Below are positions 29,431-38,975 of a stretch of DNA of 51,950 bases, piece by piece; the first letter of the stretch is position 1, and each line of letters begins with the position of its first letter. Origin of the DNA: Acidobacteriaceae bacterium (GTDB lineage Bacteria; Acidobacteriota; Terriglobia; Terriglobales; Acidobacteriaceae); contig DAIDGZ010000104.1 in assembly GCA_027452125.1 (NCBI GenBank), forward strand, positions 1 to 51,950, given 5' to 3'. Position numbers and translations under genes: made by a program. The notes under the pieces were generated by a model that was not told where the DNA came from, ran no database searches, and saw only the letters and a program-made list of their open reading frames with translations.

Positions 29431-30516
29431 GTGAACGCAAACGTGCCAGAGATACATATCTCCCAAGCGCAGTTTCAGTCGGAGCAGGGGCCTCAGGAAA
29501 CGGGATCGGCCGCGGCGGCGGAACGGATCTCCGAGGTCCGCAGATTCCTGCTATCCCGGGGGAACTCCGCGATTGCGGATCGCGGCTTCTATTACCTGAT
29601 TCTGCTCTGTGCGCTGAGCATCTTTTTTATCGTTGCGCTGATTGTGTGGCAACTGGTGCAGCGCTCACAGCTCAGCTGGCACGCCTTCGGACTCAAGTTC
29701 TTCTACCAGTCATTTGTCGACCCGGATACGCACCTGCCGATGTTCTGGGATCCGGTGAACGCGCGGTTCAGCGCGCTGCCGTTTGTGTATGGCACGCTGG
29801 TGTCGTCGTTTCTGGCGCTGCTGATGGCGGTGCCGCTGGCCGTTGGCGTGGCGGTCTTCCTCACCGAGATGTGCCCCAAGTGGCTGCGCGGACCGCTGGC
29901 ATTTTTAACGGAGCTGCTGGCGGCGATTCCCAGCGTGATCTACGGTTTGTGGGCGGTGTTTGTGCTGGTGCCGCTGATGCGCGACCACGTGAATCCGCTG
30001 CTGGTGCAGTCGCTGGGGTGGACTGGGCTGTTTGACGATCAGAATCCGACAGGATTGGGCTTTCTGGCTGCGGGAGTGATTCTGGCCATCATGATTCTGC
30101 CCATTATCTCCTCGCTGACCCGCGAGGTGATGTCGGCGGTGCCGCACTCGCAGCGCGAAGCGGTGCTGGCGCTAGGCGCCACCCGCTGGGAGATGATCCG
30201 CATGGGCGTGCTGCGTAATGCCCGGGTGGGCATTGTCGGCGGCATCATCCTGGGATTGGGCCGGGCGCTGGGCGAGACCATGGCGGTGACGATGGTGATT
30301 GGCAACACGCCGGAGATACACAAATCACTGTTGTCGAATGGAAGCTCGATGTCCGCGGTGATCGCAAACGAGTTCACTGAGGCCGTGGGCGACATGCACC
30401 TGAGCGCGCTGATCGAGATTGGCCTTGCGCTGTTCATTGTGACGATTATCGTGAATGCGCTGGCGCAGTTGCTGGTGTGGGCGGTGACGCGCGGCGCGCC
30501 TTCGCAGGCACGGTGA
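29431..30516 (+). CDS. pstC: Phosphate ABC transporter permease PstC
   Basis: A 361-residue inner-membrane permease of the high-affinity phosphate importer. A soluble N-terminus of about 50 residues precedes the first helix (YYLILLCALSIFFIVALIVW in outline). Six helices follow. The EAA-type loop that contacts PstB is ALGATRWEMIRMGVLRNARVG, quoted in part, then ILGLGRALGETMAVTMV, a PstC hallmark. First gene of the pstC-pstA-pstB-phoU cluster. No pstS is upstream; the divergent neighbour is the GH78 gene. A candidate pho box lies in the 189-base gap. Confidence 0.93.
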   Translation: MNANVPEIHISQAQFQSEQGPQETGSAAAAERISEVRRFLLSRGNSAIADRGFYYLILLCALSIFFIVALIVWQLVQRSQLSWHAFGLKFFYQSFVDPDTHLPMFWDPVNARFSALPFVYGTLVSSFLALLMAVPLAVGVAVFLTEMCPKWLRGPLAFLTELLAAIPSVIYGLWAVFVLVPLMRDHVNPLLVQSLGWTGLFDDQNPTGLGFLAAGVILAIMILPIISSLTREVMSAVPHSQREAVLALGATRWEMIRMGVLRNARVGIVGGIILGLGRALGETMAVTMVIGNTPEIHKSLLSNGSSMSAVIANEFTEAVGDMHLSALIEIGLALFIVTIIVNALAQLLVWAVTRGAPSQAR

Positions 30517-30576
30517 GACGCAGGGGACAGGGAAACGAGTAGAGGTGGACTCGCCGGAGGGGCGGGAGAGGATCGA

Positions 30577-31443
30577 GTGGCGACCGAATACAAACTCAAG
30601 TGGAAGCTGCGGACGCTGACCGACAATGCGGTGACGGCGCTGGCGATTCTGGCGACCCTTCTGGTGGTGACGCCGCTGCTGTGGATCTTTGGCTATCTGA
30701 TCTATCGCGGCGCCAGCTCGCTGAATCTCGCATTTTTCACCCAGATTCCCAAGCCGGTGGGCGAGACGGGCGGCGGCATGGCCAACGCCATCCTGGGATC
30801 GGGCATCATTCTGCTGCTGGCCAGCTCGATTGGCGTACCGATCGGCATTGGCGGTGGCATCTTTCTGGCGGAGTTTGGGCGGGGGACGAAGCTGGCCAAT
30901 GCCGTGCGCTTCACTGCGGACGTGCTGAATGGCGTGCCGTCGATTGTGATGGGCCTGGCCGCGTATTCGCTGGTGGTGATTCCGCAGGGGCATTTTTCGG
31001 CATTTGCCGGCGGCGTGGCGCTGGGGATCATGATGATTCCCACGGTGTGCCGCACCACGGAAGAGATGCTGCTGATGGTGCCGCATGCGGTGCGCGAGGC
31101 GGCGCTGGGCCTGGGCGTGCCCAACTGGCGCTCCGTGCTATCGATTACGGTGAAGACGGCTTCGCCGGGGATTATCACGGGTTGCATGCTGGCCTTTGCG
31201 CGCGTGGCAGGCGAGACGGCGCCGCTGCTGTTTACCGCGCTGGGCAACCAGTTCTGGAGCGCCAGCCTGAATCAGCCGATTGCGGCGCTGCCGTTGCAGA
31301 TTTACGTGTACGCGTTGTCTCCCTACGATGACTGGCACAGACTGGCGTGGGGCGGAGCGCTGGTGCTGATTGCCTTGATTGTGCTAGCGGTTTCGCTGGT
31401 GCGCTGGGTGACCAGCCGCGGTGTTCTGAAGGGCACAAGCTAG
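30577..31443 (+). CDS. pstA: Phosphate ABC transporter permease PstA
   Basis: A 288-residue partner of PstC with six membrane helices. ADVLNGVPSIVMGLAAY and MMIPTVCRTTEEMLLMVP are typical PstA segments, and REAALGLGVPNWRSVLSIT is the loop that docks on PstB. FARVAGETAPLLFTALGNQ closes the core. The GTG start has GGGAGAGG six bases in front, unlike pstC. It lies 60 bases after pstC and 85 before pstB, all on the same strand. Confidence 0.94.
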   Translation: MATEYKLKWKLRTLTDNAVTALAILATLLVVTPLLWIFGYLIYRGASSLNLAFFTQIPKPVGETGGGMANAILGSGIILLLASSIGVPIGIGGGIFLAEFGRGTKLANAVRFTADVLNGVPSIVMGLAAYSLVVIPQGHFSAFAGGVALGIMMIPTVCRTTEEMLLMVPHAVREAALGLGVPNWRSVLSITVKTASPGIITGCMLAFARVAGETAPLLFTALGNQFWSASLNQPIAALPLQIYVYALSPYDDWHRLAWGGALVLIALIVLAVSLVRWVTSRGVLKGTS

Positions 31444-31528
31444 AGGCGCGGCTGCCGCTGAGTTTTCTGACCGTTTTATGGCTTGAGTGTTGCGGGTTTG
31501 AAGGTAGCGAAGAAGGAGAAGTGCTTAC

Positions 31529-32287
31529 GTGGGTGTCGGCATTGAAGTGGCGAACCTGAATGCGTGGTATGGGAGCAACCACACGCTGCAGGACATCAAC
31601 CTGAATATCCCGGCCAACCATGCAACGGCGTTGATCGGGCCTTCGGGGTGCGGCAAGAGCACCTTTGTGCGCTGCCTGAACCGCATGCATGAGACCAATC
31701 CCATTGCGCGCGTAACCGGCACGGTGCGGATCGGCGACGTGGACATCTACAGCGATGCCAAGCCGGTGCAGATTCGCCGGCGCATCGGCATGGTCTTTCA
31801 GCGGCCCAATCCGTTTCCCACGATGTCTATCTACGACAACGTGGCGGCGGGTCTGAAGCTGAATGGCTATACCAACAAGCGTGCCCTGGATGAGATTGTC
31901 GAGAAGTCGCTGAAGAACTCGGCGCTGTGGGACGAGGTGAAGGACGACCTGAAGAAGAAGTCGGGCGCCAGCCTCTCCGGCGGTCAGCAGCAGCGCTTGT
32001 GCATTGCCCGCGCGCTGGCGGTGGACCCCGAGGTGCTGCTGATGGACGAACCGGCCTCGGCGCTGGACCCGGTTTCCACCTCGAAGATTGAGGATCTGAT
32101 CTTCCAGCTCAAATCGCAATACACCATCGTGATTGTGACGCATAATATGCAGCAGGCAGCCCGCGTGGCCGAGAAGACAGGGTTCTTCCTCAACGGGCGG
32201 ATGGTGGAGTTCGATTCGACGCACAAGATCTTTACCAATCCCAGCGACAAGCGCACAGAAGACTACATCACAGGCAGGTTCGGATGA
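31529..32287 (+). CDS. pstB: Phosphate ABC transporter ATP-binding protein PstB
   Basis: A 252-residue ATPase with [15 protein letters not shown] at the start, Walker [18 protein letters not shown], signature [15 protein letters not shown], Walker [14 protein letters not shown] and the H-loop [13 protein letters not shown], all typical of PstB. It powers phosphate import through PstCA. The GTG start is preceded by AGGAGAAG with six to eight bases between. Its stop overlaps the phoU start in ATGA. Confidence 0.96.
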
Positions 32288-32985
32288 CACGCATTCGTTT
32301 TCAGCAAAGCCTGGAAGACCTGAAGGAGAACCTGCTGGTGATGGCGGGCCTGGCCGAACAGGCCATCCAGCGGGCGATTGAAGCCTACCGGGTGCGCGAT
32401 CTCTCCATTTGCGACCTGGTGAGCCGCAGCGAGATTGCCATCAACCGGCTGGAGCGGGACATTGACCAGGCGGCGCTGGACCTGCTGGCGATGGAGCAGC
32501 CGATGGCCATCGACCTGCGCTTCATCCTGAGCGTGATCAAGATCAACGCCGACCTGGAGCGCGTGGGCGATGCGGCCAAGAGCATCAGCGACCGTGTGCG
32601 CAACATGGAACAGATGGCCGCGGTGGAGCTGCCGGTGGATATTCCCAGGATGGCGTCACTGGCTGCGGACATGGTACGCAAGAGCCTGCAGGCCTTCATC
32701 GAGGGCGATCCAGAACTGGCGCATACCGTACTGACCATGGATGATGCCGTGGACGCGATGAACCGCGCCGCGTATAAGGCGCTGACCAAGGTGATGGAAG
32801 ATCAGAGTCACGTGGCTCCGCAGGCCCTGAATGCATTGATGATCTGCCGCAGCCTGGAACGCGTGGCCGACCATGCCACGAATATTGCCGAGGACGTGAT
32901 CTTCTGGGTGCAGGGCGCGGATGTGCGGCACAGCAAGAGCATGGCTGAGGCCGCGAAGGATTCGCAGGGAACCAGGCGCGAGTAA
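32284..32985 (+). CDS. phoU: Phosphate-signalling regulator PhoU
   Basis: A 233-residue all-helical protein with two PhoU repeats. Each has the E/DxxxD metal-binding pattern: [18 protein letters not shown] in the first and [18 protein letters not shown] in the second. PhoU links the Pst transporter to the PhoR kinase and keeps pho genes off when phosphate is plentiful. The four-base ATGA overlap with pstB means translational coupling. No phoB or phoR is in the window. A strong terminator follows, so this gene ends the pst operon. Confidence 0.95.
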
Positions 32986-33079: not shown

Positions 33080-35908
33080 ATGTTGAAGAGACTTGTTACG
33101 CTTGCGGCATTGTTGCTGAGTGCGGGCCTTCTGTCTGCCCAGCGGATCAATCTTCCTTCCAGCAAAGAGTTGATTGAGCCGGTGCCGGGACACCCGCAGC
33201 GGCTGAATAGCCTGCCGGTTTCGATGGCGGTGTCGCCCGATGGACGCTACGTAGTGACGGTGAATGCGGGCTATGGAACCTTCGAGTCCAACTACGACCA
33301 GTCGCTCGCCGTGCTGGATACGCAGACGCTCAAGGTGGAAGATTTTCCAGACAAGCGGACCGAGGCGCGGGCTTCCAAGCAGACGCTCTATTCGGGGCTA
33401 GCCTTCAGCGGCGAAGGCCAACATCTCTACGCCAGCATGGGATCGTTGGCAGACCCGGAAGGTCACGTCTCCGGCGATACCGGCAGCGGAATTATTGTGT
33501 ACGGATTTGCCGCCGGCAAGATCACGCCGGAGCGGTTTATCCATCTGCCGCTGGTGCAGCTTGCTCCGGGGCATCACTCGAACTTGCTGACGGGAGCAGC
33601 AGGCAGCCAGGCGGTGCCGTTTCCGGCTGCGATCACGACAGTAGAGACAGCGAGCGGAGAGAGGCTGCTGGTCGCGGGCAACTGGTCAGACGATGTGTGG
33701 CTCATCGATCCCGCAAGCGGGAAGATCGAGAGGCGTTTCGATCTGGCGGAGAGCAACACTGTGCCCTCGACGTATCCGATCTCCCTGATTGTGTCGCGGG
33801 ACGGCAAGCGGGCCTTTGTGGCGCTATGGAATGCCTCAGAGATCGCCGAACTCGATCTGGTGAAGGGGACCGTGGAGGGCAAGCTTGCGCTGCTGAAGCC
33901 GCGGAGCGACGTGGCCCCCGGTACGCATCCCTGCGCCTTTCAGTTTTCGCCGGACGAGAAGACGCTGTACGTGGCGCTATCGAATCGCGATGCCGTAGCC
34001 GCGGTGAATGTGAGCGGCACACAGCTTGCGGTGAAGGGCTACTTTGATACGCGGCTGCCCGGACAGAGCTACTTTGGCGCGGAGCCGGTGGCGCTGGCCA
34101 TGAATGCGAGCGGCAGCAGACTGTATGTGGCCAACCTGGGCAGCGACGCGGTGGCCGTGATGGACACCCGCAAACTGACGGCGCATGCGGAGAAGCAGGG
34201 CATGGTGGAGCCGATCGGATTTATCCCCACCGAGTGGATGCCGATCTCGATGGCGTCCATCGCCTCGAAGACGGGCGGCATGCTCTACGTAGCGACAGAC
34301 AAGGGCAAGGGCACGGGGCCGAACAACTTTGCCCAGCGCGTGGTGCAGGCCGAAACCCATGCACGGCGCGGGGCCACAACCTATATCGGCACGCTGCTCT
34401 ATGGGTCACTGGCGGTGATCTCCGAGCAGCAGATTGCAACGCATCTGACGGAGTGGACCGCCTCCGTGCTGGACTCAAATCGGATGAAGGCCGGGCAGGC
34501 GAAGATTCGGTTTGCCGATGGCCGGTCGGACCCGATCAGGCACGTGATTTACATCATCAAGGAAAATCGCACGTACGATCAGATCCTCGGCGATCTGCAG
34601 AAGGATGGAAAGCCGGTTGGTAATGGCGATCCGGACCTGAGCATGTACGGGGCTGCGATTACACCGAACGAGCACCGGCTGGCGCTGCAGTTTGGCGTGC
34701 TGGACAACTTCTTTGACTCCGGCGAGGTGTCGGGCGATGGGCACGTGTGGTCCAACGCCGCCATTGGCACGGACTACCTGGAGAAGACCTGGCAGCAGAA
34801 CTATCGCGGCGGTCAGCGGACCTATGACTACGAAGGCGTGGTGGCAGAGGGCTATCCGCTGCTGCAGAAGATTCCCGATGTGAATGAGCCGGCGAGCGGC
34901 TATCTGTGGGGCGATCTGGCGCGGCACGGCAAGAGCTACTACCACTTTGGCGAGTTCATCGCTTCCACTTTCTGCGGGGCGAAGGCGACTTCGAATCCGC
35001 AACTGGGGCCAATGCTCGAAGGGCCGCAGTGCGCGCGCAAGGCGATTGAGCCGGGTCAGCCGATTCCCGCGGACTGGGGCGGCGGCGTGAACAAGTGGCC
35101 ATGGGCGATTCCGCTGCTGGCCGGGAACACGCCAACCAAGCCGGAACTGGTGGGGCACTTTGCAGCCGAGTCGCCGGACTTTAACCTGATGATCCCGGAC
35201 CAGATTCGCATCAACGTGATCGAGCGGCATTTGAAGCAGTGGATCGCGGACAAGAACAACGGCAATGATACGATGCCGGCGTTCATCACGGTTCGACTGG
35301 GCAACGATCATACGGCGGGGACGCGGCCGGGCGGGCCAACGCCGCAGGCCTCGGTTGCGGACAACGATCTGGCGCTGGGCAGGCTGGTGGACGATATCTC
35401 GCACTCGCCCTTCTGGAGCGACACGGCAATCTGTGTTTTGGAGGACGACGCACAGAACGGTGGCGACCACGTGGATGCGCATCGCAGCATCGCGCTGGTG
35501 ATCAGCAAGTATGCGCCGCACGGGAAAGATGGGATGCCGTTTGTGGACAGCCACTTCTATTCCACGGTGAGCATGGTCCGGACGATGGAGGAACTGCTGG
35601 GGCTGCCGCCGATGAACAACAACGACGCATTCTCCTCGGTCATCGCATCGCTGTTCACTGGGCCGGGAGACCAGCCGGCGTACGACGCGGACACTATGAA
35701 CCGCGAGAATGGGCTGATTTATACGGCGAACCAGGCAACGGCGGTGGGCGCGAAGGAGAGCATGAAGATGGACTTCACGCATGAGGACCGTGCCGACGCG
35801 CGCAAGCTGAACGTGATTCTGTGGAAGCAGGCGATGGGGAACAAGCCGGTGCCGGCGATGCTCCTGGCCAAGCCGAAGCCGGCGCACAAGAACGATGACG
35901 ACGACTAG
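33080..35908 (+). CDS. YncE-like beta-propeller fused to a phosphoesterase
   Basis: A 942-residue secreted protein. A signal peptide (residues 1-20) precedes a seven-bladed beta-propeller of the YncE/40-residue YVTN type (about 45-430; PDGRYVVTVNAGYG, FSPDEKTLYVALSNRDAVAA in outline, SGSRLYVANLGSDAVAV). From about residue 487 a phosphoesterase domain of the acid-phosphatase/phospholipase C type begins with HVIYIIKENRTYDQILGDL, carrying the ENR-[ST]-[FY]-D nucleophile motif. VLEDDAQNGGDHVDAHRS holds the C-terminal metal ligands. The architecture is common in Acidobacteriota. It follows the pst operon, so a role in releasing phosphate from organic esters is plausible. It has its own ribosome site (AAGGTGG). 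Confidence 0.88.
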   Translation: MLKRLVTLAALLLSAGLLSAQRINLPSSKELIEPVPGHPQRLNSLPVSMAVSPDGRYVVTVNAGYGTFESNYDQSLAVLDTQTLKVEDFPDKRTEARASKQTLYSGLAFSGEGQHLYASMGSLADPEGHVSGDTGSGIIVYGFAAGKITPERFIHLPLVQLAPGHHSNLLTGAAGSQAVPFPAAITTVETASGERLLVAGNWSDDVWLIDPASGKIERRFDLAESNTVPSTYPISLIVSRDGKRAFVALWNASEIAELDLVKGTVEGKLALLKPRSDVAPGTHPCAFQFSPDEKTLYVALSNRDAVAAVNVSGTQLAVKGYFDTRLPGQSYFGAEPVALAMNASGSRLYVANLGSDAVAVMDTRKLTAHAEKQGMVEPIGFIPTEWMPISMASIASKTGGMLYVATDKGKGTGPNNFAQRVVQAETHARRGATTYIGTLLYGSLAVISEQQIATHLTEWTASVLDSNRMKAGQAKIRFADGRSDPIRHVIYIIKENRTYDQILGDLQKDGKPVGNGDPDLSMYGAAITPNEHRLALQFGVLDNFFDSGEVSGDGHVWSNAAIGTDYLEKTWQQNYRGGQRTYDYEGVVAEGYPLLQKIPDVNEPASGYLWGDLARHGKSYYHFGEFIASTFCGAKATSNPQLGPMLEGPQCARKAIEPGQPIPADWGGGVNKWPWAIPLLAGNTPTKPELVGHFAAESPDFNLMIPDQIRINVIERHLKQWIADKNNGNDTMPAFITVRLGNDHTAGTRPGGPTPQASVADNDLALGRLVDDISHSPFWSDTAICVLEDDAQNGGDHVDAHRSIALVISKYAPHGKDGMPFVDSHFYSTVSMVRTMEELLGLPPMNNNDAFSSVIASLFTGPGDQPAYDADTMNRENGLIYTANQATAVGAKESMKMDFTHEDRADARKLNVILWKQAMGNKPVPAMLLAKPKPAHKNDDDD

Positions 35909-36020
35909 AACGGTGCGTCAATGCATGTGGGATAGTTCAATAGATAGATGATGTCAATGTGTGAGTCAGGGTGCTAAGATGGCAGGCGAATCGCGTGAAG
36001 TTTGCCTAGAGGAGCCTGCC

Positions 36021-37529
36021 ATGCGTAAGTCTGCTGCAAAGCTGGGAGTGCCAGCCGCTGCCTGCCTGTTTTATGCCTTTGTCCTGTGCCTGTTTTCAGG
36101 GAATGCACTGCATGCACAGAAGCCGCTGAAGCTGACGGTTCATTGGGACAAGGTGACGGAAGTTTCAAAGACCACGCCGACGCTGCAGGTGGTGGTGAAT
36201 GCGCCTTTGCGTCCGGGGCAAGCGCTGGGCGCGGCCGCGTACAAGGCGCTCAAACAACTAGGCGCGGACGATGTGCGCTATGTGCCGTGGAAGCCCTATC
36301 CGCGGCTGGTGGTGGCTGAACTGGAGCCGCCGACGCCGCAGAAGACCTCGTGGGACTTCAGCCTGATTGATCCGATGACAAAGGAGTTCTTTGCCGCGAC
36401 GGAGGGACATCCGACGGTGATGAACTTTTCGACGATTCCGGCATGGCTATTCAAGACAGACAAGCCGGTGACCTATCCCGCCGATCCCAACCAGGTCGAC
36501 TGGCACTACACGCAGGGCACAGATCTGCGCGACCCCAGCGGCAAAGAACTGGGCGACTACTTTGCGCGGCTGGTGAGCTGGTATGTGGATGGCGGTTTTA
36601 CCGATGAGAATGGCGCGCGGCACGAGTCCGGCTATCACTACAAGATTCCCATCTGGGAAGTGCTCAACGAGGTGGACTTTGAGCACAACATGACGCCGCA
36701 GGTGTATACCGAGCGCTATGACGCGATTGTGAGCGCGATTCAGAAGGTGTCGCCTGAGACAAAGTACATGGGACTTGCCGTGGCGAAGCCGGGCCTGAAT
36801 CCAGAGTGGTTTGAGTATTTTCTGAATCATGCCAACCACAAGCCAGGCATCCCGCTGGACTACATCTCCTATCACTTTTATGCCAACACAACGCCGGACG
36901 AGGGCGTGGACAACTGGCAGTACACGTTCTTCGATCAGGCGGACGGTTTTCTGAATACAGTGCGCTACGCCGAGGCGATCCGCAAGCGGCTCTCGCCTGA
37001 AACCAAGGTGGATCTGAATGAGTTGGGCGTGATTCTGCCAACCGATAACCGGGCTGGCGACGATATTCCGCCGCCCCATGCGTACTGGAACCTGTGCGGG
37101 TCGCTGTACGCGTATCTCTACATCGAGCTGTCGCGCCTGCAGATTGATATTGCGGGCATGTCGCAACTGGTGGGGTATCCGACGCAGTATCCCAGTGTGA
37201 GCATGATGGACTGGACGCAGAACAAGCCCAACGCGCGCTACTGGACACTGAAGCTGATCAAGGATGCGCTTCACCCCGGCGACAAGATGGTGGAGACGGA
37301 GATCATGTCGCGCGATGTGGCGGCACAGGCCTTTGAGACGCCGATGGGGCGGAAACTGTTGCTGGCCAACAAGCGCGATCGCACCATCGATGTGCAGCTG
37401 GCGGATGCAGACAAGGCTGCCGCGCTGGTGGTGGACGAGACAACCGGCGACGAACCGGCGCGAAGAGTGACTCCCGCAAATGGCAAGATTACCCTGGGAC
37501 CGTTTGCGGTTGCCGTGGTGAGCTGGTAA
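36021..37529 (+). CDS. Secreted GH39-like glycoside hydrolase
   Basis: A 502-residue protein with a signal peptide (to about residue 33, ending ALHAQ). A TIM-barrel catalytic region of the GH39/clan GH-A kind spans about 40-400. The acid/base candidate is Glu217 in WEVLNEVDFE (the NE pair of clan GH-A) and the nucleophile candidate is Glu334 in DLNELGV. A C-terminal beta-domain follows (VAAQAFETPMGRKLLLANK). Substrate may be xyloside, iduronide or another plant glycan. GAGGAG sits seven bases before ATG 36021, which I prefer over ATG 35961. The isomerase gene begins six bases after its stop, so the two are one operon. Confidence 0.68.
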   Translation: MRKSAAKLGVPAAACLFYAFVLCLFSGNALHAQKPLKLTVHWDKVTEVSKTTPTLQVVVNAPLRPGQALGAAAYKALKQLGADDVRYVPWKPYPRLVVAELEPPTPQKTSWDFSLIDPMTKEFFAATEGHPTVMNFSTIPAWLFKTDKPVTYPADPNQVDWHYTQGTDLRDPSGKELGDYFARLVSWYVDGGFTDENGARHESGYHYKIPIWEVLNEVDFEHNMTPQVYTERYDAIVSAIQKVSPETKYMGLAVAKPGLNPEWFEYFLNHANHKPGIPLDYISYHFYANTTPDEGVDNWQYTFFDQADGFLNTVRYAEAIRKRLSPETKVDLNELGVILPTDNRAGDDIPPPHAYWNLCGSLYAYLYIELSRLQIDIAGMSQLVGYPTQYPSVSMMDWTQNKPNARYWTLKLIKDALHPGDKMVETEIMSRDVAAQAFETPMGRKLLLANKRDRTIDVQLADADKAAALVVDETTGDEPARRVTPANGKITLGPFAVAVVSW

Positions 37530-37535
37530 GCGAGA

Positions 37536-38054
37536 ATGAATCCGATGAACAGCGAACGTGCGTTGCGAGTGGGCCTGTGCGGGATTGGCCTGGAGGCTTA
37601 CTGGAGCCAGTTTGCAGGACTGGAAGAACGGTTGAAGGGATACGTTGGGCGCGTGGCCGAGCGGCTGTCTCGTCCCGGCGTAGCCGTGGTGAACCTGGGG
37701 CTCATCGATACACCGCAGCGCTCGCGCGAGGCCGGGCACGCGTGCCGCAGGGAAGATGTCGATGTCCTCTTCCTGTATGTAACCACCTATGCGTTGTCGA
37801 ATACGGTGCTGCCGCTGGTGCAGCGCGCCGGTGTGCCGGTGATCGTGCTGAACCTGCAGCCGGAGGCGGCAATGGACTACGCCGCCTTCAACAAGCTGAC
37901 GGATCGTACGGCGATGACCGGGGATTGGCTGGCGTATTGCTCGGCGTGTCCGGTGCCGGAGATTGCCAATGTGCTGATGCGCGCGGGGATTCCGTTTCAT
38001 CAAGTGACGGGCGTGCTGGATGATGAAGCGACCTGGCGCGAGATGGAGGCGTAG
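37536..38054 (+). CDS. N-terminal fragment of the isomerase-family gene
   Basis: If the TAG is a true stop, this gives a 172-residue protein: the N-terminal alpha/beta domain only (GLCGIGLEAYWSQF at the start, VLNLQPEAAMDY and MTGDWLAYCSACPVPEIANV further on). It lacks the metal and sugar ligands of the second half, so alone it should be inactive. The start ATG follows the GH39 stop by six bases. Confidence 0.55.
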   Translation: MNPMNSERALRVGLCGIGLEAYWSQFAGLEERLKGYVGRVAERLSRPGVAVVNLGLIDTPQRSREAGHACRREDVDVLFLYVTTYALSNTVLPLVQRAGVPVIVLNLQPEAAMDYAAFNKLTDRTAMTGDWLAYCSACPVPEIANVLMRAGIPFHQVTGVLDDEATWREMEA

Positions 38055-38069
38055 CTGGCAGCAGCGCAG

Positions 38070-38975
38070 GTGCGCGCGGCGATGGCGGCCACGCGGCTGG
38101 GGCTGATGGGCCACTATTACAGCGGCATGCTCGACATCATGACCGACGTGACGCAGGTTTCCATTGCGTTTGGCACGCATGCAGAGATTCTGGAGGTGGA
38201 CGAGCTGAGCGCGCTTTGCGCCGCGGTGAGCGCGGAGGAGGTTGCGCGGCGCGTAGCCGAGTTCAACGATGCGTTTGACGTGCAGCAGGACTGCCCGGAA
38301 GATGAGTTGCGGCGGGCAGCGCGGACCTCGGTTGCGCTGGACGCCTTTACGGCGCGGCACGATCTGCAGGCGATGGCTTACTACTACAAGGGCTCAGGCA
38401 ATGCGGCGAATGAGGACACGATGAGCTCGATCATCCTGGGCACCTCGCTGCTGACAGCGCGGCATATCCCGGTGGCCGGCGAGTACGAGGTAAAGAACGC
38501 GATGGCGATGAAGATGATGGATGTGCTGGGCGCAGGCGGCTCGTTCACCGAGTACTACGCGATGGACCTGAAGGATGACCTGGTGCTGATGGGGCACGAT
38601 GGGCCGGGACACATTGCGATTGCCGAAGGCAAGACCAAAGTGCGCCCGCTGAAGGTGTATCACGGCAAGGTGGGACGCGGCCTCTCCGTGGAGATGAGCG
38701 TGAAGTATGGGCCGGTGACGCTGCTCTCCGTGGTGGAGGATGCGGAGCGGCGTTTCAAACTGGTGGCGGCGGAAGGGGAGTGCGTCGCAGGGCCGATCCT
38801 GGAGATTGGAAACACCAACAGCCGGTACAGGTTTTCACTGGGAGCGCGCGGATTTGTGGAGGCGTGGAATGCGCAGGGCCCCGCGCATCACTGCGCCGTG
38901 GGCGTGGGTCATGTGGCGGAGACGCTGAAGAAGACCGCAGCGCTGATGGGGCTGGGCTATTGCCGGGTATGCTGA
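38070..38975 (+). CDS. C-terminal fragment of the isomerase-family gene
   Basis: In the same frame after the TAG, the first ATG at 38070 would give a 301-residue protein with the central and C-terminal domains. No Shine-Dalgarno sequence is evident before it, so separate translation would need reinitiation close to the upstream stop. It retains CPEDELRRAARTSVAL, YYYKGSGNAANEDT, and GLSVEMSVKYGPVTLLSV. Confidence 0.5.
   Translation: MRAAMAATRLGLMGHYYSGMLDIMTDVTQVSIAFGTHAEILEVDELSALCAAVSAEEVARRVAEFNDAFDVQQDCPEDELRRAARTSVALDAFTARHDLQAMAYYYKGSGNAANEDTMSSIILGTSLLTARHIPVAGEYEVKNAMAMKMMDVLGAGGSFTEYYAMDLKDDLVLMGHDGPGHIAIAEGKTKVRPLKVYHGKVGRGLSVEMSVKYGPVTLLSVVEDAERRFKLVAAEGECVAGPILEIGNTNSRYRFSLGARGFVEAWNAQGPAHHCAVGVGHVAETLKKTAALMGLGYCRVC

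Follow-up and report, generated by a model that had tools for sequence, protein, structure and literature searches.

An isomerase gene in the window (the whole 51,950-nucleotide stretch of Acidobacteriaceae DNA that was analysed) is interrupted by a single in-frame TAG, which is probably a fresh Trp-to-amber mutation that arose very recently in this lineage. One G-to-A change would have turned TGG, the codon of the invariant Trp173, into amber TAG. Ribosomes would then release a chain of 172 residues that ends within a long helix, and this truncated product, without any residue aligned to the active site of L-arabinose isomerase (AraA), would provide no working isomerase, except for traces of full-length enzyme that near-cognate misreading might yield. 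The features are listed in Table 1.

Table 1. Interrupted isomerase gene, its parts and the adjoining upstream gene (positions in the window)
Feature	Position	Strand	Basis
GH39-like gene, directly upstream of the isomerase gene, open	35961..37529	+	ORF, Pfam
Isomerase gene, predicted L-arabinose/L-fucose isomerase fold, 479 codons plus TGA, one interruption	37536..38975	+	Frame, domains, homology, orthologue model
N-terminal part, 172 codons; no residues aligned to the AraA active site	37536..38051	+	Orthologue alignment, orthologue model
In-frame TAG, codon 173; TGG (Trp) in 109/110 other distinct orthologues	38052..38054	+	Alignment
C-terminal part, 306 codons; central and C-terminal isomerase domains; Glu316, Glu339, His354, His451/His452	38055..38972	+	Domains, alignment
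GGAGG, Shine-Dalgarno-like, chance-looking; 5 bases before CTG 38055	38045..38049	+	Sequence; inference

Of the 480 codons in the frame, only two are stops, namely TAG (codon 173) and TGA (codon 480), and reading through the frame with X in place of TAG, its sole interruption, gave a protein of 479 residues. Stops make up only 1.6–2.6% of codons in the six frames here and long shadow frames occur in the window (for example, 637 amino acids on the − strand, 36447–38360), so the openness of the second part is by itself weak evidence for a gene. Codons 1–172 and 174–479 both align collinearly with intact orthologues, and homology therefore settles that this is one interrupted gene. The preliminary description had placed two halves in one frame, parted only by the TAG and with C as the next base; frame reading and collinear homology agree with it, and the codon directly 3′ of the stop is CTG.

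The part after the TAG matched PF11762 (43.7 bits, cut-off 25) and PF24856 (28.8 bits, cut-off 24). Codons 1–172 gave no Pfam or NCBIfam match at E 0.01; they are 53–86% identical to the N-terminal parts of orthologues at loci L002–L026. The C-terminal part reached 51 bits against the AraA equivalog NCBIfam NF002795, for which the cut-off is 622; the parts were scanned separately and the whole protein is thus unscored. The fold was taken from an AlphaFold2 model of the intact orthologue at locus L032 (mean pLDDT 88.8), which matched E. coli L-arabinose isomerase (4f2d) with a TM-score of 0.86 (by query) at 17% identity, and by this model the product of the interrupted gene belongs to the AraA/FucI isomerase fold. 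Glu316, Glu339, His354 and His451/His452, which we take to be catalytic, align with the active-site motifs of AraA and all lie beyond the TAG, and the truncated product would be expected to be inactive. The L032 counterpart of Trp173 is Trp170, within helix 161–181 of the model. Among the literature matches listed, no title names this isomerase subfamily.

Orthologues were collected from other genomes among the relatives (match in 26/98 at E 1e-20), from public genome contigs (best 80 of 575 loci) and from across the phylum (match in 27/395 other genomes at E 1e-40, three of which were already in the relatives' set). This gave 133 loci, of which 130 cover codon 173 (L028, L029 and L041 do not and were dropped), and 111 distinct sequences after duplicates were removed. 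In this set, which includes the best 80 of the 575 contig loci, codon 173 is TGG in 109 sequences, TAG in the window and GCC in one; an earlier alignment of 106 covering rows, duplicates included, had 105 TGG and the window TAG. The GCC row (L239, 37% identity) has a gap beside codon 173 and an ADWC motif just before it and so looks like an alignment shift; in the similar locus L027 the Trp is aligned at this codon. We infer that the change ran from TGG to TAG. The stop is not conserved in relatives, TAG standing at codon 173 in 1 of the 111 distinct sequences, and no orthologue collected is broken there, for which reason two genuine genes were rejected.

Damage elsewhere in the gene was assessed against 85 distinct orthologues from L002–L109, after loci with an alignment shorter than about 430 residues (including L057) had been dropped. 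Positions were called invariant when all rows with a residue agreed and at least 90% of rows had one. The window keeps 80 of the 81 invariant positions and loses only Trp173. The preliminary description had thus called both the codon change and the soundness of the rest of the gene correctly; nothing resembling an old pseudogene was found.

For the age of the stop, the ancestral state was approximated by pairwise and three-taxon codon counts. The tree sister of the window gene is L003 (80% nucleotide identity), and codons in which the window departs from a state common to L003 and L033 were counted as changes on its own branch. There were 2 nonsynonymous and 19 synonymous changes before the stop, and 5 and 24 after it. 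Counted likewise downstream of the stop, two relatives gave 16:45 and 15:29 (nonsynonymous:synonymous), a sum of 31:74, from which 5:24 does not differ significantly (Fisher p 0.24); no relaxed selection after the stop was seen in this comparison. As judged from these codon counts, the downstream codons show continued purifying selection on the window lineage, and the stop is therefore of very recent origin, an artefact, or tolerated. By a rough Poisson bound, neutral evolution after the stop can have taken up no more than about 1–14% of the branch, depending on the baseline; with no relaxation visible, the stop, if real, is too young for visible decay. Continued decoding across the stop would also account for a dN/dS that has stayed low until now.

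The isomerase gene was found in 25 of 58 other genomes of the same genus and was missing in 33/58 at E 1e-20, a figure that overstates its absence because many of the genomes without it are incomplete. The orthologue at L057, in another Acidobacteriaceae metagenome-assembled genome (MAG), carries a TAG of its own at codon 241 (L057:549–551), a variable position, and is intact over the rest of its alignable part; this TAG is independent of that in the window. The patchy presence within the genus and the break in L057 fit a dispensable gene. The further suggestion that the stop followed loss of a sugar pathway is without direct support, because nothing interrupts the matched length of the adjacent GH39-like gene, and 46 of the 59 loci L002–L060 (duplicates included) have a relative of that gene near the isomerase. 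Between phoU and the GH39-like gene lies a 942-amino-acid protein (33080–35908) with beta-propeller matches above the cut-off and a phosphoesterase match below it; its relatives adjoin the GH39-like gene in L032, L035, L053 and L054. Before it, two binding-protein-dependent permeases, an ABC ATPase and a PhoU protein stand in a row (29431–32985); this looks like a phosphate transport (pst-phoU) operon, and its order is kept in the relative L167.

If the A came from faulty sequencing or assembly, or from a minority strain in a MAG-like consensus, the gene of the organism itself would read TGG and be intact. A fresh mutation and a base-call error (or a mixture of strains in the assembly) would look alike, since purifying selection downstream and the lack of a second lesion are exactly what an error would show. 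The bin is in 178 contigs and 67.11% complete, and the other broken orthologue, L057, also comes from a MAG, in a contig that ends inside the gene. The bin itself does not have the look of an error-ridden one. When relatives' proteins were compared with 709,624 of its bases, 80 homologous places (29,916 aligned residues; some are shadow frames, so fewer than 80 genes were covered) were found, and 12 of them held a stop in the alignment. By eye, the isomerase was the sole clean interior interruption among these; the other 11, judged as a group, were put down to stretches preceding a start, to alignment margins or to shadow frames, and in two of them (L113:1–456 and L213:796–242) the stops are adjacent or multiple and do not sit right at the edge. 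In the reverse control, 14/152 places had stops, with two frameshift-like pairs; a smaller earlier run had stops in 4/40 and one frameshift-like pair, which lies over the isomerase itself but on the opposite strand.

Same-frame splits were also sought by codon usage in 284,975 bases of the bin, which yielded 20 candidate stops, the isomerase included. Pfam searches on both halves of 10 of the 20, other than the separately scanned isomerase, matched both in three (L115:2260, L123:17996 and L123:2961), one half only in one (L123:15492) and neither half in six. The three look like tandem genes because their halves match different families. The comparison with the relatives' proteins showed no other clean interior interruption by eye, and a generally bad assembly was rejected. 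Frequent errors in the bin are unlikely, given that only the isomerase was cleanly interrupted among the 12/80 places with stops and that the reverse control gave 14/152; a single error is not unlikely. A literature search on premature stops in MAGs gave no match. On balance we consider an error, the main rival, less likely than a fresh mutation, and regard the A at codon 173 as probably real in the living population.

Functional readthrough, in which UAG would be misread, perhaps as Trp or Gln, and the stop would lower full-length isomerase without abolishing it, is improbable. It draws on the low dN/dS after the stop, on the C directly following it and on the available portions of Belinky et al. 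2021 (PMC7918605), where in-frame stops under purifying selection are described in bacteria and readthrough is suggested. Among the origins of in-frame stops these authors include sequencing errors and pseudogenes, and they focus on stops common to at least two species to remove errors, whereas the present stop is in one genome only. According to the consulted text of a ribosome profiling study in E. coli (PMC5373646), bacterial readthrough is rare relative to frameshifting. Release factor 1 (RF1) is present (530.7 bits, cut-off 423.25), and none of the 26 tRNA genes has the anticodon CTA, although the bin is 67% complete and also without tRNA-Trp and others. Local RNA folds near the stop were no better than shuffles (z 0.10 and −0.40), and structure-driven recoding was rejected for this reason. 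Nothing directly supports readthrough, an option in the preliminary description; among 27 hand-picked likely ORFs of the window, 4 also end in TAG followed by C. A stronger form, in which the amber is real, fixed and decoded often enough to keep the isomerase selected, as a leaky switch on a sugar pathway, is quite improbable.

By a rough codon-usage filter applied to L110–L129 and the window, 164 gene-like segments ended in TAG (67, the isomerase TAG counted too), TAA (50) or TGA (47), and within the window alone TAG ended 10/32 by the same filter. TAG is therefore the commonest terminator of such segments in this genome of 62% GC by the rough filter; among the 27 hand-picked window ORFs TAA leads (12 TAA, 9 TAG, 6 TGA). 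A change of genetic code was rejected, since the genome has RF1 and regularly uses TAG as a terminator. Nothing points to a special decoding mechanism at the isomerase stop, and little supports recoding.

A split protein, terminated at the TAG, restarted at CTG 38055 or GTG 38070 and assembled from its pieces, is very improbable. The GGAGG that ends 5 bases before CTG 38055 is a possible, weak restart signal by its sequence, but the break would fall inside the long helix of the L032 model, no orthologue among those collected is split at this codon, and an invariant Trp would be lost. A-to-I editing, by which UAG would become UIG and be read as Trp, is scarcely credible and was rejected on its unmatched motif: it would restore the conserved residue exactly, and tRNA-Arg(ACG), the standard TadA substrate, is present, but the site reads GTAGCTG, by eye two bases off TACG and five off YTACGAA, and its 35-base fold is no better than shuffles. 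Natural bacterial TadA editing sites lie within TACG (UACG in RNA), mostly YTACGAA, and about 31% of sites are one or two bases off TACG when TadA is overexpressed, as given in the sections of PMC12255301 available.

The isomerase stop is thus most likely an ordinary event, either a fresh disabling mutation or else a base-call error, and it changes no view of bacterial decoding. The fresh mutation, if real, shows gene loss caught cleanly at the outset, ahead of any visible decay, in a gene variably present within its genus; its ancestral codon, TGG, had been called correctly from raw sequence alone. Among known counterparts, the L-arabinose isomerase AraA of E. coli (4f2d, 2ajt) is alike in fold (TM-score 0.86, orthologue model against 4f2d) and in its Glu/Glu/His/His motifs, and unlike in identity (17%) and in the score of the C-terminal part (51 bits against the AraA cut-off of 622). 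The in-frame stops of Belinky et al. (PMC7918605), as far as the available portions describe them, likewise include TAG within a gene whose dN/dS is low before and after it, but there the focus is on stops common to at least two species, in contrast to the one genome here. The recent nonsense pseudogenes and polymorphisms of bacteria in general likewise present, in one genome, a single in-frame stop where the gene is otherwise conserved, and the isomerase gene shows no difference from them, provided that the consensus base at codon 173 is real.
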